From positions 1-47,176 of the forward strand of contig NZ_JRLB01000098.1 of assembly GCF_000764495.1 (NCBI RefSeq): a stretch of 47,176 nt of DNA. The letters run 5' to 3'. The notes beneath the pieces were generated by a model. That model was not told the DNA's origin, ran no database searches, and saw nothing but the letters and a program-made list of their open reading frames with translations. Made by a program: the position numbers and the translations under genes. Shown here in pieces: positions 6,372 through 45,813 of the stretch (within the stretch, counting starts at the first letter, position 1; each line of letters starts with the position of its first letter). This DNA is from Nitrincola sp. A-D6. GTDB lineage: Bacteria > Pseudomonadota > Gammaproteobacteria > Pseudomonadales > Balneatricaceae.

Positions 6372-7549
6372 ATGTCTGAGAGCGGCCTGGATATAGTGAT
6401 TGATGACACCACCCTGCGTGATGGTGAACAAACCGCCGGGGTGGCCTTCTCGCGCGATGAAAAATTGCAGATTGCGCAACAGCTGGATGCACTGGGTGTG
6501 CCTGAACTGGAAGTCGGCATTCCGCCCATGGGGGAATCCGAATGCGAGGATATCCGCGCATTGGCAGATCTGCAGCTGTCCGCACAGCTAATTGCCTGGT
6601 GCCGGATGCGAGCGGATGATCTGCACGCCTGTCAGGGTTTGCCGGTACAACTGCTCGATCTGTCGGTGGCCGTGTCCGATCTGCACATCCACAAGAAACT
6701 GGGAAAATCACGTCCCTGGGTGCTGCAGCAGATCAGGCAACTGGTTCCCGCCGCCGTTGACCAGGCTTTGCCGTGATTGTCGGCTGCGAAGACGCCTCCC
6801 GTGCTGACCCGGAGTTTTTGCTGCAGGTGGCAGAAACGGCCCAACAAAGTGGCGCCCTCCGACTGCGCTTTGCCGATACACTGGGCATTATGGAACCTTT
6901 CGGTGTTTTTGCCATTATCAGCCGCTTGGCAGCCGCCACAGATCTGCAACTGGAGATGCACGCGCATGATGATCTGGGGCTGGCGACGGCTAACAGCCTC
7001 GCCGCGGCCAAAGCCGGGGCCAGCCATATCAACACCACCGTCAATGGACTGGGCGAGCGTGCAGGTAATGCGGCCCTGGAGGAGGTGGTACTGGGGCTAA
7101 GCCAACTCTACGGCCTGTCGACCGGTATCAATCTGCAGCATTTTCCAGCGCTCTCGTCTCTTGTAGCCGAAGCCTCGGGCCGACCGGTCAGCTGGCAAAA
7201 AAGCCTGGTGGGCGCCGGTGTATTTACCCACGAAGCCGGTATTCATGTCGATGGTCTGCTCAAGGACCCGTTGATCTACCAAGGGGTCGATCCAGCCCTT
7301 CTCGGCCGTCAACATGAGCTGGTTCTGGGTAAACATTCCGGCAGTAAGGCAGTGCAAGCACGTTTCGCTCGGTTGGGATTGCCGATAAGCGCCGCCCAAG
7401 CCCAGCCCTTATTGACTGCCATTCGTCAGCAGATGCGGCTAAGCAAGCAACCGCTCAGCGATACCCAGCTTATGGCGTTACATCAGCAGTTGCTTGTTTC
7501 TTCCAACCTTTCACCGGATGTGGCCAAAACGGCACCCGCCCTTTGTTGA
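6372..7549 (+). CDS. nifV: NifV homocitrate synthase (one frame break near 6770)
   Basis: The restored product has about 392 residues. It condenses acetyl-CoA and 2-oxoglutarate to homocitrate, the organic ligand of FeMo-co. The N-terminal [15 protein letters not shown] and the metal-binding [13 protein letters not shown] are both present, followed by [14 protein letters not shown] and the C-terminal [18 protein letters not shown]. The frame breaks near 6770, where TTG-CCG should read TTG-GCC-G. Adding one G restores a continuous protein ([13 protein letters not shown]) with no other defects, so I read this as a base lost in sequencing. It starts 10 bases after nifS. Confidence 0.93.
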
Positions 7550-18068: not shown

Positions 18069-18102
18069 ACAGAGCAGATGAACCCAAGATGAGGATCTGA
18101 CC

Positions 18103-19589
18103 GTGAAACTGCCCGTTCTCAATAATACCCCTGCCACCAGCGAAGCCGGTGGCTGCGCTTCAGGTTCCTGCGGCAGCAGTGATGCCTCTGTTCAGAGCCT
18201 GCCTGAATCCATCCGGGCCAAGGTGGCCGATCATCCCTGCTTTTCCGAGCAGGCTCACCATTTTTTTGCGCGGATGCATGTAGCGGTAGCACCGGCCTGT
18301 AATATCCAGTGCAACTACTGTAACCGTAAATACGATTGCAGCAATGAATCCCGTCCAGGCGTGGTTTCTGAGGTCCTGACCCCGCAACAGGCGGTCAAGA
18401 AGGTTAAGGCGGTAGCGGCGGCTATTCCTCAGATGTCAGTATTGGGAATTGCCGGCCCTGGCGACCCGCTGGCCAATCCGCACAAGACCTTTGAAACCTT
18501 CCGACGCTTGAGCGCCGAAACACCGGATATCAAGCTGTGTGTGTCAACCAACGGCCTGACGCTGCCCGAGTGTGTGGATGAACTCTGCCAGCACAATATC
18601 GATCATGTCACTGTCACCATCAATTGTGTCGATCCAGAGATAGGCGCGAAGATCTATCCGTGGATTTTCTGGAAGAATAAACGTATTCGCGGGGTTGAAG
18701 CCGCCCGTATCCTGATTGAGCAACAGCAAAAAGGGCTGCAGATGCTGATTGATCGCGGCATTCTGGTGAAGGTGAATTCAGTACTCATCCCTGGCATCAA
18801 TGATCAACACCTGATCGAAGTTTCGCGGATCGTCAAAGAAAAAGGCGCTTTCCTGCACAATGTTATGCCGATCATTTCCGAACCGGAGCATGGCACCTAT
18901 TTCGGACTCACCGGGCAGGCTGAACCCACCGCTGCCGAGCTTCAAGCGGTACAGGATGCCTGTGCAGGCGATATGAATATGATGCGCCACTGCCGCCAAT
19001 GTCGCGCCGATGCTGTCGGACTTTTAGGCGAGGATCGTGGCGCTGAATTCACGCTGGACAAAATCGATGCCATGGAGGTCGATTACGAGGCCGCTATGGT
19101 AAAACGCGCCGAGGTTCATGAACAGTTGCTTGGGCAACTCTATGCACAGCGCGAATCTGCCTCGCAGCCTGCCAGGACGGCTCTACAGGGGCGCACCGTA
19201 CTCATGGCTGTATCGACCAAGGGTGGTGGCCTGATTAATCAGCACTTTGGTCATGCGACTGAGTTTCTGGTCTATGAAGCGAGTGATAATGGTGTGCGCT
19301 TTATTGGTCACCGGCAAGTTGACAAGCCTTATTGTGAAGGCGGCAGCAGCTGTGGTGAGGATGCTGAAACCCTGCTGGACACCTTGCTTAAAAGTCTGCA
19401 GGGCTGTGAAGTACTGTTGTGCTCCAAGGTCGGCTATGAGCCTGGAGTGCGCTGGAGCAGGCGGGTATCCAGCCCAATGGTGAGCATGCCCTGGAGCCGA
19501 TTGAAGATGCCATTTTGGCGGTATACCAGGAGATGCTGACGAAAGGCCTGTTGCACACACCCGATAACGTTGCTTTGAAATCAGCGTGA
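18103..19589 (+). CDS. nifB: NifB, FeMo-co core (NifB-co) synthase, with NifX-like C-terminal domain (one frame break near 19444)
   Basis: The restored product has about 495 residues. The radical SAM motif CNIQCNYCNRKYDC is near residue 66, followed by GIAGPGDPLANP and CRQCRADAVG, all diagnostic of NifB. After about residue 360 comes a NifX-like domain (VLMAVSTKGGGLINQHFGHATEFLVYE). One base is lost near 19444, and restoring it gives EPGSALEQAGIQPNGEHALEPIEDAILAVYQEM to the TGA at 19587. The start is GTG at 18103: the two upstream ATGs run straight into stops, and GAGG precedes the GTG. NifB makes the 8Fe core that NifEN matures. Confidence 0.95.
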
Positions 19590-25528: not shown

Positions 25529-25888
25529 ATGACATGGAATGTACTAATCACAGATGAGTATGAAAGTTGGTTCTTAAACCTGACTGAAGCTGAACAGATT
25601 GATGTTCAAGCTATGGTGGATGTTTTAGAAATCAAAGGTCCGAATCTTGGTCGTCCTCAAGCCGACACGATAAAGGGAACAAAAAAGGTTAAAAATTTAA
25701 AAGAGTTGATCATTCAACACGCCGGAAAGCCTTACAGAGTTTTCTATGCCTTTGATCCCAAGCGCCAAGCTGTTCTTTTATGTGGTGGACGAAAAGATGG
25801 AGCAAAAGACAAACAGTTCTATAAACAAATGGTGCCGCTGGCTGAAGCTGAGTTTGCGGACCACTTAAAAAACGAAGGCACTGAATAG
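25529..25888 (+). CDS. HigB/Gp49-like toxin
   Basis: The 119-residue protein fits the RelE/ParE superfamily, Gp49/HigB subgroup: WNVLITDEYESWFLNLTEAEQIDVQAMVDVLEIKGPNLGRPQADTIKG, then LKELIIQHAGKPYRVFYAFDPKRQAVLLCGGRKDG and KQFYKQMVPLAEAEFADHL. These proteins cleave mRNA on the ribosome. The antitoxin follows 16 bases later, toxin first, as in higBA. The pair sits between lysR and a decayed copy of the lysR 3' end. Confidence 0.85.
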   Translation: MTWNVLITDEYESWFLNLTEAEQIDVQAMVDVLEIKGPNLGRPQADTIKGTKKVKNLKELIIQHAGKPYRVFYAFDPKRQAVLLCGGRKDGAKDKQFYKQMVPLAEAEFADHLKNEGTE

Positions 25889-25904
25889 TGCTTCGGGAGT
25901 AGAT

Positions 25905-26216
25905 ATGACAAAGCCCTTAAGCGAACTGCGCAAAAAAATGAGCCCAGAGGTTCAGGCAGCAGCCCGTGCGAAAGCAGTTGGAATTGTTGCCGAAATGTCG
26001 CTGGCTGAAACCCGTAAATTGCGAGGCCGCAGCCAAGCTGTGGTCGCACAAGCCTTAGGCATTGCACAACCCAATGTATCTCAAATTGAAAAACGTCCTG
26101 ACACAATGGTCAGCACCTTAGCCTCCTATATTGAAGCCTTAGGTGGGACGCTTGAAATCCATGCTAAGTTTCCTGATGGACAAGACGTTGAGATTACTCA
26201 GTTCAACAAAGCTTAG
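25905..26216 (+). CDS. XRE-family antitoxin (HigA-like)
   Basis: The 103-residue protein has a helix-turn-helix of the XRE type (LRGRSQAVVAQALGIAQPNVSQIEKRPDTMVSTLASYIEALGGTLEIHAKFPDG). The helix arrangement and the ending LEIHAKFPDGxDVEI are typical of antitoxins paired with Gp49-like toxins. It should neutralise the preceding toxin and repress the operon. It starts 16 bases after the toxin stop. Confidence 0.87.
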   Translation: MTKPLSELRKKMSPEVQAAARAKAVGIVAEMSLAETRKLRGRSQAVVAQALGIAQPNVSQIEKRPDTMVSTLASYIEALGGTLEIHAKFPDGQDVEITQFNKA

Positions 26217-26300: not shown

Positions 26301-27244
26301 TTAAAATTTTCGGGGCACCCACCAGAGATAAAACACCATACCGAGTAATTCAACCAGGGATTGCAGCACTACCACCATAGCAACCAGCTCCCAGCCAGCA
26401 GGCAGAGCCAGTGCAATCGGCAGGACCACAAAGGAATTACGGGTACCAAAGCTGAAAGCCAGGGTACGTCCTTGCTCAACGGGTAGCTTAAACAGCCCTG
26501 ATAAGGCTTTAGCCAAGTAGAAAGCAGCGAACAGAAATACCACAAACACCAGTATCAATAGCGGCAACTGGCTGAGTAGCTGTTGTATCGATGCGGCTTG
26601 AGAGGCGGTGATCAACAGAATAACCAGCGCCAGCAAGGGCACTGGCCACCAACCAAGGCGCTCACGCCAGATCAGGCGCTGCGGTCGAGCTCCATCCAGC
26701 GTTCGCTAATAGCCGCACAGATCAATGGCAGCAGAATAATTAACAGAGCCGCCAACAGCGACTGTGGCATGCCCTCCAGCGAGAGATCCGCATCATTCAT
26801 CCCCCAGAGGTACACAGGTAACAGCAAAATTTGCAATAACAGCAGTACCGGTGCCAATGCCAGCGCATGCGCACTGCTGCCACGACCCAGTTGGGTAAAG
26901 GTGATAAACCAGTCGGTACAGGGCACCAGCAACACCAATAGCACACCAAGTCGCAACGCTGGCTGGTTTGGCAGAAACTCTACCAGGCCCCACACCAGTA
27001 ATGGCAGCAGGATAAAATTACCCAGCAAGGCCGCGCTGATAAAGCCTCTGTCTCTGAACGCATCGCGCAGATGCAGTAGTGGCACCTGCACAAAGGTTGT
27101 ATACAGCAGCACTATCAATACTGGCCAGAGCAGTTGTTCTAAAAACAGACCTATACTTGGCCATTGATGACTAATCACCAGGCCACAGAAGATCGCAACC
27201 AGATAAATCCAGACTTGTTGGCGCTCCAGGGTTATACGCAGCAT
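26301..27244 (-). CDS. Arsenite/bile acid:sodium symporter family membrane transporter (one frame break near 26679)
   Basis: The restored protein has about 314 residues and around ten membrane helices. The blocks LLYTTFVQVPLLHLRDAFRDRGFISAALLGNFILLPLLVWGL, LVPCTDWFITFTQLGRGSSAHALALAPVLLLLQILLLPVYLWG and FSFGTRNSFVVLPIALALP fit the ACR3-like branch of the BASS superfamily, which is often annotated as arsenic resistance. One base is missing near 26679, and restoring it joins ERWMELDR to RLIWRERLGWWPVPLLALV. No arsR or arsC is nearby, so the substrate is uncertain. Confidence 0.8.
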
Positions 27245-27308: not shown

Positions 27309-27740
27309 TCAGCCCGCGACGCTAAGCACCACCTGCTCATGTGGATGCCAGCTGTGTGCATGACGCAGGTATTGCGCCAATGGGTCATCCCAGCTTTGCT
27401 GGTGCTCATCCTGCCACAGACACAACTGACTATGCAGTGTGAGGGCATCCGGCCCGGCCTGATGCTGTAGCTGCTGCTGATAATCCGCCAGCATTTTCAG
27501 CAACGCCTGGTGCTGTCGGCGGTGCGATTCGTAGCCGGGATACCCGGTCACCTGCATAAAGCGCTCTTCCTGATCAAAATGCTCACGGGCATTGAGGATC
27601 AAACTGTTCAGTAAGCAAGGGAGTGCCGTTGCTGACACCATCGGCAGGGCACCCAACAATGCCGTAAAGTGGTGGTGGGCACGATCCATGGCCGGTAAGT
27701 TGTAATGCTGCAAACGCAGTGTCGCGGTCATATCTGTCAT
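27309..27740 (-). CDS. Bacteriohemerythrin
   Basis: The 143-residue protein has a full set of di-iron ligands: MDRAH (His22), HFDQEERFM (His54, Glu58), ESHRRQH (His73, His77) and WQDEHQQSWDD (His113, Asp118). Bacteriohemerythrins bind O2 reversibly and can deliver, buffer or sense it. The ATG at 27740 has GAGGAGG about seven bases upstream; an ATG five codons earlier would place this sequence inside the gene. The gene directly follows the SIR2-like gene in a sigma-54-preceded operon divergent from nifH. Oxygen handling for nitrogenase is an inference. Confidence 0.92.
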   Translation of the reverse strand: MTDMTATLRLQHYNLPAMDRAHHHFTALLGALPMVSATALPCLLNSLILNAREHFDQEERFMQVTGYPGYESHRRQHQALLKMLADYQQQLQHQAGPDALTLHSQLCLWQDEHQQSWDDPLAQYLRHAHSWHPHEQVVLSVAG

Positions 27741-27755
27741 GATAAGCCTCCTCAT

Positions 27756-28616
27756 TCAGGCATAGCAGGGAGTGGTCGCTTCAATTAGCGCCGCCAGGCA
27801 TTCTTCGTGTGTTATAGGCAAAATTTCAAACCCCTTACGTTGCAAAAATTTCACCTCGTTAGCAGTCGGATCAGGCAAACAAGCCCACCCGGCAGGCTGT
27901 CCAGCACCATAAGCGATATCACTGAGCAGCATACGTGGGGTATCGCGGTTCAGGCGCAAGCCCAGTAACAGATACTGCTTTCCGAGTCGTTGCTGTTTCA
28001 GGAAGGGCGGCATACCAAACCCGCCCATCAATTCTGTCAGGTAATCGACATAATCTGCATCTGACGCAATATAAAGCGATTCAGGCAAAGGCGTTCCTAC
28101 TGGCTTGAACAACACCGGTAGCTCTGTATCCAGCCAGGACGCCTGAGTTGCCAGGTATTGGCTGCCGTTGTAATGAAACAGACGATAGCGCTCGCTACCA
28201 CCGCTAATGCGCGCTACGCCAACCACCAGAATATGTGGGGTGTCTTGCCATAACAGTTGTAACTGGGTATCACGGTTCATATCGATAATGTAATCCGGAT
28301 TCAGTGATGCCAGTTGCTGATGAAATTCGGAAACACTCCAGGTCGTATCACGGTAGGTGGTGTCGAGAAACCGCGTAACCGCTTTACGGCCTTTTTTCAG
28401 TTCGATATTCATCGCCGCGCGCGGAAACTCATACATCAGTTTGGGTGCCATGGGTCGTCCCTGATTCATGGCGATGATCAGACTGTCGCTATCAGCAGGT
28501 ATCGGATTGCCCTGCGAGTCGGTCACGTTGTTGAGTGCATCCGATCCTATTACCGGCACGCATTGTCCAGATTGCATGGCCTCCAGCAGGCTTTCAGGAA
28601 GTGTGTTATTCATCAT
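27756..28616 (-). CDS. SIR2-like (SIR2_2-type) protein, nif-linked
   Basis: The 286-residue protein resembles the SIR2-like domain: CVPVIGSDALN (about 19-29) for the glycine-rich NAD loop, FHQQLASLNPDYIIDMNRD (98-116) for the usual LxSLxPxxIITTNYD block, LFKPVGTPLPESLYIASDADYVDYLTEL (169-196) for KLHGxxxxPxxxVLTxxDY, and KQYLLLGLRLNRD (213-225). The catalytic His of the LHG motif appears replaced (KPVG), while the Asn at about 114 is kept. Any NAD hydrolysis is therefore doubtful and NAD binding alone is possible. It is first in an operon with hemerythrin and has its own sigma-54 promoter. Confidence 0.65.
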   Translation of the reverse strand: MMNNTLPESLLEAMQSGQCVPVIGSDALNNVTDSQGNPIPADSDSLIIAMNQGRPMAPKLMYEFPRAAMNIELKKGRKAVTRFLDTTYRDTTWSVSEFHQQLASLNPDYIIDMNRDTQLQLLWQDTPHILVVGVARISGGSERYRLFHYNGSQYLATQASWLDTELPVLFKPVGTPLPESLYIASDADYVDYLTELMGGFGMPPFLKQQRLGKQYLLLGLRLNRDTPRMLLSDIAYGAGQPAGWACLPDPTANEVKFLQRKGFEILPITHEECLAALIEATTPCYA

Positions 28617-28677
28617 CTGGTTCGCCCTTGTGTTGATTCATTCAAATAACTGTCATAACAGCGTTTAAACTAACAAC

Positions 28678-28693
28678 AGCAATTCACATGCCA
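28678..28693 (-). promoter_or_regulatory. Sigma-54 promoter of the SIR2-like/hemerythrin operon
   Basis: On the minus strand TGGCAT-N5-TTGCT has exact -24/-12 spacing and lies 62 bases before the ATG at 28616. The NifA site at 28783-28798 is 90 bases upstream, nearly mid-way to the nifH promoter. Confidence 0.8.
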
Positions 28694-28782: not shown

Positions 28783-28798
28783 TGTCGCCAGTCCGACA
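28783..28798. promoter_or_regulatory. NifA activator site shared by nifH and the SIR2-like operon
   Basis: TGT-N10-ACA with core cgccagtccg. It is 97 bases from the nifH -24 element and 90 bases from the divergent one. An IHF-like site (12 of 13) lies at 28866-28878, 17 bases before the nifH -24 box. The 355-base gap 28617-28971 holds these elements only. Confidence 0.85.
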
Positions 28799-28894: not shown

Positions 28895-28910
28895 TGGCAC
28901 AGCCCTTGCC
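28895..28910 (+). promoter_or_regulatory. Sigma-54 promoter of nifHDK
   Basis: TGGCAC-N5-TTGCC has exact spacing and the full -24 consensus. It lies 62 bases upstream of the nifH ATG. Confidence 0.93.
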
Positions 28911-28950: not shown

Positions 28951-29847
<897 letters not shown>

Positions 29848-29889: not shown

Positions 29890-29906
29890 TGAGCAGTAAA
29901 TGCTCA
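29890..29906 (+). other. Hairpin in the nifH-nifD spacer
   Basis: TGAGCA and TGCTCA form a 6-bp stem with a 5-base loop. A weaker 5-bp stem lies just upstream (29869-29885). No T-run follows, so it may stabilise nifH mRNA rather than end transcription. This is inference from position. Confidence 0.35.
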
Positions 29907-29965
29907 CTTACTTATTCTCGATGGCGTTTCTGCAGATTAGCAGACGCCGCTGGAGGAAACCTGTT

Positions 29966-31436
29966 ATGGCTAAGTTAAACAAAGAAGAGGCTCAGGCACT
30001 CATTCAGGAAGTGCTGGAAGTCTATCCGGAGAAGGCGAAAAAGGAACGTGCCAAGCATTTAACGGTGAATGATACCGCTGCCGAGGCAAAAACCTGCGTC
30101 ACCTCCAACCGTAAATCCCTGCCAGGTGTTATGACCATCCGTGGTTGCGCCTATGCTGGCTCCAAGGGTGTGGTCTGGGGTCCCATCAAGGACATGATCC
30201 ATATCTCGCATGGTCCGGTTGGCTGCGGTCAATACTCACGTGCTGGACGACGTAACTACTATGTCGGTACTACCGGCGTGGACAGTTTCGGTACGATGAA
30301 CTTCACCTCGGATTTCCAGGAAAAAGACATTGTCTTCGGTGGTGATAAAAAGCTCAGCAAACTGATTACCGAGATAGAGCAGTTGTTTCCGCTCAACCGC
30401 GGCATCAGTGTTCAGTCTGAATGCCCTATCGGGTTGATCGGCGATGATATCGAAGCGTCTCCAAATCCAGTAGTAAAGAGATCGGCAAGCCGGTGATTCC
30501 GGTGCGCTGTGAAGGTTTCCGTGGTGTGTCTCAGTCACTCGGCCACCATATCGCCAACGATGCCATCCGTGATCATGTGTTTGATCGCGAGGGGGGTGGC
30601 AATGGTGTCGAGCCGGGCCAGTACGATGTCGCCATACTGGGTGACTACAACATCGGGGGTGATGCCTGGTCTTCGCGTATTTTACTGGAAGAGATGGGCT
30701 TGCGGGTTGTTGCCCAGTGGTCCGGTGACGGTACGTTAGCCGAGATGGAGCAGACGCCGAAGGTGAAGCTCAACCTGCTGCACTGCTACCGTTCCATGAA
30801 CTACATCTCACGCCATATGGAAGAAAAGTACGGTATCCCCTGGGTAGAGTACAACTTCTTTGGCCCCACCAAAATTGCTGAAAGCCTGCGTAAAATCGCT
30901 GCTTACTTTGATGACAACATCAAGGAAGGCGCCGAGAAGGTGATTGCCAAGTATCAGGCCATGTCAGAAGAGATTATTGCCAAATACCGGCCACGTCTGG
31001 AAGGCAAAAAAGTCATGCTGTATGTCGGTGGTCTGCGTCCACGCCATGTAATCGGTGCCTATGAGGACCTGGGCATGGAAGTGGTGGGTACCGGCTACGA
31101 ATTCGGCCATAACGATGACTATGACCGTACCCGTAACGATATCGGCAATGCCACACTGATTTATGACGATGTCACCGGTTTCGAGTTTGAAGAGTTCGTC
31201 AAACGCGTCAAACCCGACCTGGTCGGTTCCGGCGTGAAGGAAAAGTACATCTTCCAGAAAATGGGTGTGCCTTTCCGTCAGATGCACTCCTGGGACTATT
31301 CCGGCCTTATCATGGCTACGATGGCTTCGCCATTTTTGCCAAGGATATGGACATGACACTGAACAACCCCTGCTGGTCGAAACTGACACCGCCCTGGAAA
31401 CAACTTCCAGAAGCTGAACAGCAGGCTGTTGCCTGA
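29966..31436 (+). CDS. nifD: NifD, MoFe protein alpha subunit (two frame breaks near 30457 and 31306)
   Basis: The restored protein has about 490 residues. P-cluster cysteines are in [25 protein letters not shown] and [14 protein letters not shown]. Other landmarks are [13 protein letters not shown], the FeMo-co Cys in [13 protein letters not shown] and the FeMo-co His region [15 protein letters not shown]. One G is lost near 30457 (GCG-GTC) and one C near 31306 (GGC-CCT). Both repairs give the exact conserved sequence. The ATG at 29966 follows GGAGGAAA; the longer upstream frame is not part of the protein. Confidence 0.97.
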
Positions 31437-31495
31437 TTCCCTTATCACTACTCACGCCTGCGTCCGCAGATTAGCGGCCAGGCAAGGAGACGGTC

Positions 31496-33066
31496 ATGCA
31501 AGACATTGAAAATATCAAACAAAGCTTTCCCTTGTTCAGTAATGAAGAATACAAGGACGTGCTGGCGCGCAAGAAAGGTGACTATGAAAACGGACACCCG
31601 GTCGATACCGTGGATGAAACCTTCGCCTGGACCACATCAGTTGAATATAAAGAGCTGAACTTTGCCCGCGAAGCCCTGACAGTTAACCCGGCCAAGGCCT
31701 GTCAGCCACTCGGTGCGGTACTCTGTGCACTGGGATTTGAAAAAACCCTGCCCTATGTACACGGATCGCAAGGTTGTGTGGCGTATTTCCGCACCTACTT
31801 CAACCGTCACTTCAAGGAGCCGGTGGCCTGTGTCTCTGATTCCATGACAGAAGACGCGGCGGTGTTCGGCGGTCAGAAAAACATGATCGACGGCCTGGAA
31901 AATGCCAAGCACTCTACAAGCCGGAGATGATCGCTGTCTCCACCACCTGTATGGCCGAAGTTATCGGTGATGACCTGAATGCCTTTATCGGCAACGCCAA
32001 AAAAGCCGGCGCTGTCGCTGAAGACTTCCCCACACCCTTTGCGCATACGCCATCCTTTGTCGGCTCGCATGTAACGGGCTGGGACAATATGTTTGAAGGG
32101 ATAGCACGCTACTTCACCCTCAACCACATGGAAGGTAAAGAAGTCGGCAGTAACGCTAAAATCAACCTGGTACCCGGCTTTGAAACCTACCTGGGTAACT
32201 ACCGTGTTATTCATCGCATGATGCAGGAGATGGGCGTTGACTACAGTCTGCTGTCGGATCCCACTGAAGTGCTGGATACCCCGGCAGACGGTGAATACCG
32301 CATGTACTCCGGCGGCACCACACAGGATGAAATGAAAGATGCGCCCAATGCCATCACCACCATCTTGCTACAGCCGCTGCACCTGGTAAAAACGGCCAAA
32401 CTGCTGACCAACACCTGGCACCATGATGTTCCCAAGCTGGATATCCCGATGGGACTGGAACTGACTGATAATTTCCTTATGGAAGTGTCTCGTCTGACCG
32501 GCAAAGAGATCCCGGAAAGCCTGGCCAAAGAGCGTGGACGCCTGGTGGATATGATGACCGACTCGCACACCTGGTTGCACGGTAAAAAGTTTGCCCTCTA
32601 CGGCGATCCAGACTTCACTCTGGGACTGACCCGCTTCCTGCTGGAACTGGGTGCCGAGCCAACCCACGTGCTCTGTCAGAGTGGTGGTAAACGCTGGGAA
32701 AAACGCATGAAAAAAATGCTGCAGGATTCAGCGCCGGTCAACAATCAGACGCAGCTGTTTTCACGTCATGATCTGTGGCATTTCCGTTCATTGATGTTCA
32801 CCGAAAAACCGGACTTCATGATCGGCAACTCCTACGGCAAGTTTATTCAGCGTGACACCCTGCATAAAGGCAAGGAGTTCGAAGTACCACTCATCCGTAT
32901 CGGTTTCCCGATCTTTGATCGCCATCACCTGCATCGTTCAACCACGATGGGTTATGAAGGTGCCATGACGATATTGACCACCCTGGTGAACTCTGTCCTG
33001 GAGCGCATGGATGATGATACCCGTCTGATGGCGCAAACAGACTTTAACTATGATCTGGTGCGTTAA
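31496..33066 (+). CDS. nifK: NifK, MoFe protein beta subunit (one frame break near 31909)
   Basis: The restored protein has about 523 residues. P-cluster ligands are in [36 protein letters not shown] and [14 protein letters not shown], and the P-cluster Ser region is [11 protein letters not shown]. The N-terminal extension (about 60 residues) is of the Azotobacter type. One G is lost near 31909 (AAG-GCA), and its repair gives [17 protein letters not shown]. It follows nifD by 59 bases with AAGGAG before the ATG. Confidence 0.97.
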
Positions 33067-35878: not shown

Positions 35879-37278
35879 ATGCAGGCAAAACAACTGGCCG
35901 CCTTACTGGATGAGCCCGCTTGCAGCCACAACAGCAAAGCAAAAAGTGGCTGCACTCCACCCAAACCCGGCGCATCGGATGGTGGATGTGCCTTTGATGG
36001 GGCACAGATCGCCTTGCTACCCATTGCGGATGTTGCGCATATCGTGCATGGCTCCATAGCCTGTGCCGGTAGCTCCTGGGATAATCGCGGTACCCGCTCA
36101 TCTGGCCCAACCCTCTATCGTATCGGCATGACCACCGACCTGACTGAACAGGATGTCATCATGGGGCAGGGTGAGAAGCGCTTGTTTCACAGTATTGCCC
36201 AGGCCATCAGGGACTACTCACCGGCGGCGGTGTTTGTCTATAACACCTGTGTACCGGCCTTGATCGGCGATGACTTTGAAGCCGTCTGCCGGGCTGCCAC
36301 TACCCACTTCAGCCTGCCGGTTATACCGGTGGACTCGGCCGGATTCTACGGCACCAAAAACCTCGGTAACCGCCTGGCGGGTGAGGCGATGTTTAAACAT
36401 GTCATCGGCACCGCCGAGCCGGAGCCCGTAGCCGCTGAGCTTCAGCGCCCCGGCATTCAGGTACACGACATCAACCTGATCGGTGAATACAACATCGCCG
36501 GAGAGTTCTGGCAGGTACTGCCGTTACTGGATGAACTGGGGCTGCGCATCCTTTGCACCCTGTCCGGCGATGCGCGTTTTCATCAGGTGCAGACCATGCA
36601 CCGCGCTGAAGCCAATATGGTGGTGTGTGCCAAGGCGCTATTAAATGTCGCCCGAAAAATGCAGGAGCACTATGGCATCCCCTGGTTTGAAGGCAGTTTC
36701 TACGGCGTAGAAGACACCTCTGATGCCCTGCGTAGCCTGGCGCGTTTATTACAGGACCCTGACCTGACCCAGCGTACAGAACAGCTGATCGCACGAGAAG
36801 AGGCCCGTATCCACACCCTGCTTGCCCCTGGCGGGAGAGGCTAAACGGCAAACGCGTGCTGCTATATACCGGTGGGGTGAAATCCTGGTCCATTGTCTCG
36901 GCGCTGCAGGATCTGGGCATGGAGGTTGTCGCAACCGGCACCAAGAAGTCCACCGAGGAGGATAAACAACGCATTCGCGAGATCATGGGTGAGGATGCAC
37001 GCATGCTCGACGACGGCAGTCCGCGTGCGCTGCTGGACACCATCCGTGACTACCGTGCCGACATGCTGATTGCCGGGGGCCGTAATATGTATACCGCACT
37101 GAAAGCCCGGATTCCCTTTCTGGACATCAACCAGGAGCGCGAGTTTGGCTATGCCGGGTATGACGGCATGCTGGAGCTGGCACGTCAGCTTTCACTCACG
37201 CTGGAGTCGCCTATCTGGACATCACTAAGAACACCTGCACCCTGGCAGCACACAGCTGAAGGAGTTAAGCATGGTTAA
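35879..37278 (+). CDS. nifE: NifE, FeMo-co scaffold subunit (one frame break near 36827)
   Basis: The restored product has about 466 residues. Conserved parts are [80 protein letters not shown] and [24 protein letters not shown], then [36 protein letters not shown]. One C is lost near 36827, where repair gives [16 protein letters not shown]. With NifN it forms the scaffold where NifB-co matures to FeMo-co. It overlaps nifN by eight bases. Confidence 0.95.
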
Positions 37279-38692
37279 AATCATTAAACGCCAAAAGCCC
37301 ATGACGGTAAACCCACTCAAGGTCAGTCAGCCTACTGGCGCTATTCTGGCGTTTCTTGGCATACGCCACGCCTTACCCATGCTGCATGGCTCGCAGGGTT
37401 GCAGTGCCTTTGCCAAGGTGTTTTTTGTGCGCCATTTTCGTGAACCCATTCCCCTGCAAACCACCGCCATGGACCAGACCACCACGGTCATGGGGCTGAT
37501 GACAATGTGTTTCAGGGATTACGTACGGTGATCGAAAAGCGCCAGCCCGCCCTGATCGGCATTCCAACTACGGGCTTATCGGAAACCCAGGGCAGTGATA
37601 TCCACGGGCTGGTTAAACGCTTCTACCATCAACACCCTGAATACAGCAACACCCCGATCATTCCAGTCGTTACGCCGGATTATAGCGGCGGCCTGGAAAG
37701 CGGTTATGCCCTGGCGGTTGAAGCCCTGATCCAGCAGTTGGTCGCTGATGATCCAGGACACGCGGGTGAGCACCCACAACAGATTAATGTGTTGGTGTCC
37801 TCCATGCTGACGGCGGCTGACCTGGAATACCTGCGTGATCTGGTGGAAAGCTTCTCCCTGCAGCCGGTAATACTGCCCGATGTCGCGATGCCCTGGATGG
37901 TCATCTGACCGATGACGACTTTACCCCCTAACCGTCGGCGGCACCCCGGTAGAAGCCTTTGCCAGCCTGGGGAAAGCCCGCGCCACCCTGGTTATCGGCC
38001 GCTCCCTGCACAAAGCAGCCGATCTGTTACAGCAACGCACCGGTGTTGAAGATTACCGTTTCGACAGTCTGATGGGACTAGACGCCATGGATGCATTGGT
38101 AGAGACACTGCGCCAACTCAGTGGACAAGCCGTCTCCGTAAGGCTGGAGCGTGAACGTAGCCAGTTACAGGACAGCCTGCTGGATACCCATTTTATGCTG
38201 GGTTTTGCACGTTATGCCGTCGCCGCCGATCCGGACCTGCTGTATTCACTCAGCCAGTTACTGGTCAGCACAGGCGGGGAGGTTGTGGCGGCCGTGAGCC
38301 CACACCATGCGGCCCTGCTGGCTGATTTACCCGTTAACGAAGTGTTTATTGGTGATCTGGAAGACCTGGAACAAACCGCCCGAAGCCATCAGGCGCAACT
38401 GCTGATCAGTAATGCACACGCGGCTGAGACGGCAGCCAGGCTGCACATACCCTTAGTCCGCGCTGGCTGGCCTGTCTATGACCGACTGGGCGCACAGCAC
38501 CAGCTCTGGATCGGCTATCGTGGCACCCGCAATACCCTGACCCTACTGGCTAATCAGTTGCTGGAACAGGGACATCAGCACGCGATCAAAGCGCATGTAT
38601 CCATCTACGCCACTCGCCATGCCAATCAGACGACCTGCGTCAATCAACCTATAACAGGGGAGGCTGACCATGCGTCACTTGAAGTTAATTAA
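37271..38692 (+). CDS. nifN: NifN, FeMo-co scaffold subunit (three frame breaks)
   Basis: The restored product has about 474 residues. The N-terminal [67 protein letters not shown] is typical NifN. Losses are one G in the run at 37492-37495 (repair gives [17 protein letters not shown]), one G near 37890 (GTCGCG-ATG-GCC) and one C in the run at 37924-37928 (repair gives [17 protein letters not shown]). The whole frame then reads through to 38692 without other stops. It overlaps nifX by 23 bases. Confidence 0.93.
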
Positions 38693-45797: not shown

Positions 45798-45813
45798 TGG
45801 CACCCATTTTGCT
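45798..45813 (+). promoter_or_regulatory. Sigma-54 promoter before the 41-aa membrane protein
   Basis: TGGCAC-N5-TTGCT is a full -24/-12 element with exact spacing, 45 bases upstream of the ATG at 45859. Confidence 0.8.

Follow-up and report, generated by a model that had tools for sequence, protein, structure and literature searches.

A pnfA-type SIR2-fold protein and a bacteriohemerythrin encoded as a recurring pair beside nifH in Nitrincola sp. A-D6

The closest described system to the gene pair studied here is pnfA (PST1325) of Pseudomonas stutzeri A1501, which was described in 2010, is divergent from nifH, depends on NifA and RpoN and is 9.7-fold induced (PMC2820453). A non-polar pnfA mutant had 23% nitrogenase activity at 0.5% O2, was like the wild type under argon and lost nitrate-supported nitrogen fixation; its nifH mRNA was unchanged, and it was complemented, with data not displayed in the paper (PMC2820453). 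The authors proposed electron transfer or oxygen protection, based on similarity to UspA/ETF; the words 'sir2' and 'hemerythrin' are absent from the main text, which holds no analysis of catalytic residues, and PST1324, the 26-fold induced neighbour of PST1325, is annotated there only as 'conserved hypothetical' (PMC2820453). PST1325 has been labelled SIR2 family elsewhere (PMC11332353). The stretch analysed here (hereafter the window) comprises 47,176 nucleotides of Nitrincola sp. A-D6, contig NZ_JRLB01000098.1, and carries next to nifH a SIR2-like gene, which is probably the orthologue of pnfA, followed by a bacteriohemerythrin gene.

Other SIR2-like genes are listed in nif clusters. Rcc03262 of Rhodobacter, a SIR2 family protein, was detected in the wild type and not in a nifA mutant (PMC6925177 Table 1), ZMO1821 of Zymomonas increases on N2 (PMC8600466), and the nif operons of Rhodovulum include a SIR2-like protein (PMC9412634). 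These are likened to the window gene by description only; they occupy other positions in their clusters, and no hemerythrin is mentioned with them in the available text. One figure legend places a hemerythrin in nif clusters (PMC11208148), but no paper on a pnfA-hemerythrin partnership was found in the openly accessible literature using hemerythrin-nif terms or locus tags, so this partnership seems undescribed. The first-pass annotation had stated that no role was described, which did not stand, as a role is partly described already for pnfA, but without the SIR2 fold or the hemerythrin. The SIR2 gene itself is therefore less novel than first claimed; what is new here is the assignment of its product as a probable pseudoenzyme and the conserved pair.

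The pnfA-type protein and its family

The pnfA-type gene (27756-28616, minus strand) is an open reading frame (ORF) of 286 amino acids, encoding a single-domain protein over the whole of which the SIR2 fold extends. The closest solved folds are those of anti-phage SIR2 proteins, which bears out the fold proposed at first pass. PF13289 matches 25 of 27 family members (best 2.6e-25) and not the window member itself, for which searches with the single protein against Pfam and NCBIfam, and with phmmer against the PDB, gave no useful match; neither did an NCBIfam search with the family. The NADases KomC, ThsA and DSR2 likewise have the SIR2 fold over the whole protein, and KomC is of the same one-domain size, but in the window protein the catalytic His is replaced and the loop altered, and its gene belongs to a nif regulon rather than a defence locus.

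In the profile alignment to KomC, N150 occupies the column of the catalytic H146. None of the 108 family members has His there, and Asp or Asn is found in 98; a His two residues before this column (42/108) or one before (20/108) is conserved at neither place. The motif Asn (N114) is kept in all 99 members of clade I and replaced by Trp in all nine of clade II. The alignment and the column counts thus agree with the earlier claim that the motif Asn is kept and the catalytic His lost. The loop that contacts nicotinamide adenine dinucleotide (NAD) in SIR2 proteins reads GSD in the window copy, which has lost the second Gly and so departs from the GAG type, whereas 94/108 members have a GxG loop (GPG 63, GAG 29, GSG 2). 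No paired Cys of the sirtuin zinc site occurs in the window protein. With the catalytic His lost, the protein should bind nucleotide without hydrolysing it, and KomC(H146N) is, by its structure title, the form solved with NAD fragments, so that loss of this His fits binding without turnover. Judged by its residues, the pnfA-type protein is predicted to be a pseudoenzyme of the SIR2 kind.

Almost all genomes that carry the family also bear nif genes. The NifH counts given here are hand tallies, with true NifH set at 350 bits or more in the class survey and 287 bits in the phylum survey. Among 369 genomes of the class, 28 carry a pnfA-type gene and 32 a true NifH; 27 of the 28 have true NifH, and NifD is present in the remaining one (G268, whose copy lies at the start of a contig). 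Five NifH genomes of the class are without the gene (G057, G068, G177, G194 and G322). In the phylum survey, 20 of 398 genomes matched the family, 17 of them strongly, and 14 of these 17 were among the 40 genomes with a strong NifH, 26 of which lack the gene. Of the three strong matches without NifH, G402 has NifD, and G425 and G603 have only NifD-like matches below the cut-off.

Homologues of clade I share about 50-71% identity with the window protein, including that of P. kuykendallii (61%), and those of clade II about 22-26%; clade II genes lie downstream of nifZ/nifS or nifB genes. PnfA resembles the window protein in size (31.7 kDa) and in divergence from nifH, has a −24/−12 box and a TGT-N10-ACA site in the shared intergenic region, and was reported only from diazotrophs, alongside a second subfamily of about 20% identity, a division also seen in the family studied here (PMC2820453). 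The position beside nifH is variable, nifH being within five listed genes upstream in only 43 of 105 loci; elsewhere the gene order differs, the stretch is short or spurious ORFs intervene. DraT, which modifies NifH in an NAD-dependent manner, is encoded next to nifH in several relatives, often directly before pnfA, whereas the draT of the window genome is on another contig (G000:C4:35987-36751) and not beside nifH. The window protein itself has no match to PF07357 at E 1, and its identity as a DraT was rejected. In five loci (L040, L046, L086, L126 and L137) the order is nifH / draT - pnfA, with a sigma-54 box scoring 9 or 10 between draT and pnfA.

Shared promoters, the hemerythrin and recurrence of the pair

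The bacteriohemerythrin gene (27309-27755, minus strand) is an ORF of 148 amino acids, with a probable start, judging from the sequence, at 27740, behind AGGAGG just past the stop of the pnfA-type gene. Both ORFs point away from nifH (28972-29847, plus strand; PF00142 436.6 bits, TIGR01287 467.7 bits). The pair has a sigma-54 (−24/−12) promoter at 28678-28693 on the minus strand (TGGCATGTGAATTGCT, one mismatch) and nifHDK has one at 28895-28910 on the plus strand (TGGCACAGCCCTTGCC, one mismatch). Between them, at 28783-28798, a motif scan found the single TGT-N10-ACA NifA site of the intergenic region, with 89 bases to the box of the pair and 96 to that of nifHDK. The promoter facing away from nifH and the NifA site shared with it were thus recovered as first annotated. 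Over the whole window the TGT-N10-ACA motif is not enriched (15 found against 13.2 expected), and sigma-54 sites with at most one mismatch are, at nine against 3.5 expected, a count reached in 1 of 100 shuffles.

The sigma-54 box recurs in relatives, with 62 of 103 loci scoring at least 9 of 11 upstream of the pnfA-type gene compared with 3.8% of 2060 shuffles, which kept base composition only; none of the nine clade II loci reaches 9. Start codons of the relatives were placed by a motif rule that failed elsewhere for L064, L065, L066, L106, L124 and L143, so the scores of some relatives may be misplaced (L065 scored 0).

The window hemerythrin passes the cut-offs of TIGR02481 (53.3 bits; 51.75) and PF01814 (27.8 bits; 25.3) and falls below those of the stricter NF033749 and PRK models. 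As claimed at first pass, the di-iron ligand set is complete (H27, H59, E63, H78, H82, H118 and D123). All seven ligands are present in 47 of 50 aligned rows, the window included, and the set is incomplete in L049, L115 and L066, the last being the P. kuykendallii locus, in which the first His is substituted. The single domain and seven ligands are shared with bacteriohemerythrins such as DcrH and the Methylococcus hemerythrin, but the window protein belongs to a separate, nif-linked clade.

The pair was sought in other nif-bearing genomes and recurs there. The named loci are the best 80 of 588 confirmed and for that reason lean towards relatives of the window; two pairs of loci, L037/L108 and L043/L137, each seem to be duplicate copies of one contig. 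The counts took in loci whose downstream sequence reached 900 bases or more (78/80 named, 17/18 class-sample clade I and 9/9 clade II). A same-strand hemerythrin ends within 3 kb downstream of pnfA in 41 of the 78 named loci, 38 of these within 1 kb, and one is downstream in 6 of 17 clade I loci of the class sample, which is the less biased set, and in none of the nine clade II loci. On the pnfA tree, from which L037, L043 and L106 were left out, pair state changes 11 times compared with 34.6 for shuffles and is stable over large clades. Chance neighbourhood was ruled out by this recurrence and the few state changes.

The adjacent hemerythrins are themselves related, with 47 of 48 in one nif-linked clade (support 85, from 140 columns) that also holds four more hemerythrins encoded on those fetched stretches. 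L135, counted as adjacent but with its hemerythrin further downstream, is outside it. Thirty loci were fetched for matches to hemerythrins elsewhere in their genomes, and of 26 such hemerythrins in the tree 24 are outside the clade; the two inside it are the window's own copy and its sister. In G163, G184 and G138 the pnfA-adjacent hemerythrin is the sole one found.

Neighbouring features of the window

SBF transporter ORFs downstream of the pair (26301-27244) were dropped as conserved operon members because L064, L065 and L099 carry modABC there instead. Further downstream, at 25529-26216, Pfam matches indicate a Gp49-like gene with a helix-turn-helix gene, which we take to resemble a HigBA-type toxin-antitoxin module. 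A perfect sigma-54 consensus is present at 45798-45813, outside the recognised nif operons, and an Rfam scan of the window gave two tRNAs and nothing else. Six nif genes each read in at least two pieces compared with intact relatives: nifV (6372-7549), nifB (18091-19586), nifD (29900-31433), nifK (31439-33066), nifE (35879-37260) and nifN (37271-38692). A hemerythrin on contig C72 likewise looks split. The broken nif frames in the window are probably assembly indels, the alternative being that the nif cluster has lost its function.

Possible roles of the pair

The explanation we favour, at a probability of roughly 0.45, is that the pair forms a nitrogenase-accessory operon induced by NifA and sigma-54, encoding a non-hydrolysing SIR2 protein and an O2- or nitric oxide (NO)-binding hemerythrin. 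NifA and sigma-54 would induce both genes together with nitrogenase. PnfA, its catalytic His lost, would hold a nucleotide, probably NAD or ADP-ribose, uncleaved, and through it would read the respiratory or redox state; acting post-transcriptionally, it would sustain nitrogenase activity during respiration, under microaerobic conditions or on nitrate. The hemerythrin would bind O2 or NO in the vicinity of nitrogenase or of its electron supply, and the two proteins may co-operate. For the probable orthologue, NifA/RpoN dependence is published, as is the need for pnfA for full nitrogenase activity with a respiratory acceptor and not for nifH transcription (PMC2820453).

Several points weigh against this explanation. 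The A1501 pnfA mutant also fails with nitrate in the absence of O2 (PMC2820453), so pure oxygen protection does not cover the phenotype, which may leave room for roles in NO or electron supply. The altered loop of the window copy means that NAD binding is not assured. The probable orthology with pnfA is judged from protein size, gene position, the identities given in print and the homologue of P. kuykendallii. Finally, the hemerythrin is not downstream in 37/78 named, 11/17 class-sample clade I and 9/9 clade II loci; PnfA must work without it there and, standing alone in many lineages, makes the hemerythrin an optional partner. The first-pass annotation is therefore confirmed in its observation and partly supported in its interpretation: of the oxygen or redox protection that it proposed, the link to oxygen and respiration stands through the genetics of pnfA, but a switch for O2 protection alone misses the nitrate phenotype (PMC2820453).

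The loci without a hemerythrin suit a shared promoter with separate functions. PnfA would then contribute to cofactor assembly or to the supply of electrons, and the hemerythrin would independently deliver O2 to a high-affinity oxidase or act as an iron buffer when growth is microaerobic. L093 (536-943) and L107 (167-559) suit this reading too, each having a nif-type hemerythrin that is not beside pnfA but downstream of nifHDK, in a run of genes on the same strand. This is possible, if doubtful, given that the adjacent hemerythrins fall almost entirely into one nif-linked clade and that pair state holds steady across large clades. PnfA might instead be an active enzyme of altered chemistry, for example a deacylase or an ADP-ribosyl transferase/hydrolase with nitrogenase as its target, in which Asp or Asn stands in for the catalytic His. 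The prevalence of these residues in the His column, the invariant motif Asn of clade I, an invariant polar set (E72, R77, H99, D116, D186, D188, R210, R228 and E254) and a His at 148 or 149 that could serve in part of the family would suit such an enzyme, as would draT within five genes upstream in 26/105 loci; the Zymomonas authors suspect a deacetylase (PMC8600466). The Trp of clade II, the missing zinc-site Cys pair and the nucleotide-bound KomC(H146N) make it improbable. A role for PnfA as a defence NADase like KomC, ThsA or DSR2, placed in a nif island by accident, was rejected as most improbable on the missing catalytic His and the near confinement to nif-bearing genomes. The closest solved folds point that way, and PADLOC models match some of the 27 members (ThsA models 7 and 2, best 4.6e-6; LmuA 4, best 7.6e-9), but none of these matches the window protein, and the sigma-54 box in relatives and the nitrogenase phenotype of pnfA (PMC2820453) argue against it.

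A bolder form of the favoured accessory-operon explanation holds that nitrogenase has recruited a dead relative of anti-phage SIR2 NADases as a nucleotide reader, which with the hemerythrin would give post-translational O2/redox protection independent of DraT/DraG and of the FeSII-type protection of nitrogenase; this we consider unlikely. O2 damage to nitrogenase is a main obstacle to its use in new hosts. The pair is small, probably NifA-controlled and recurrent among nitrogen fixers, and genetic work has already tied one of its members to microaerobic nitrogenase activity (PMC2820453); it offers a protection or coupling factor that can be tested directly. The family also provides a case of the SIR2 NADase fold apparently being used outside defence after loss of a catalytic residue.
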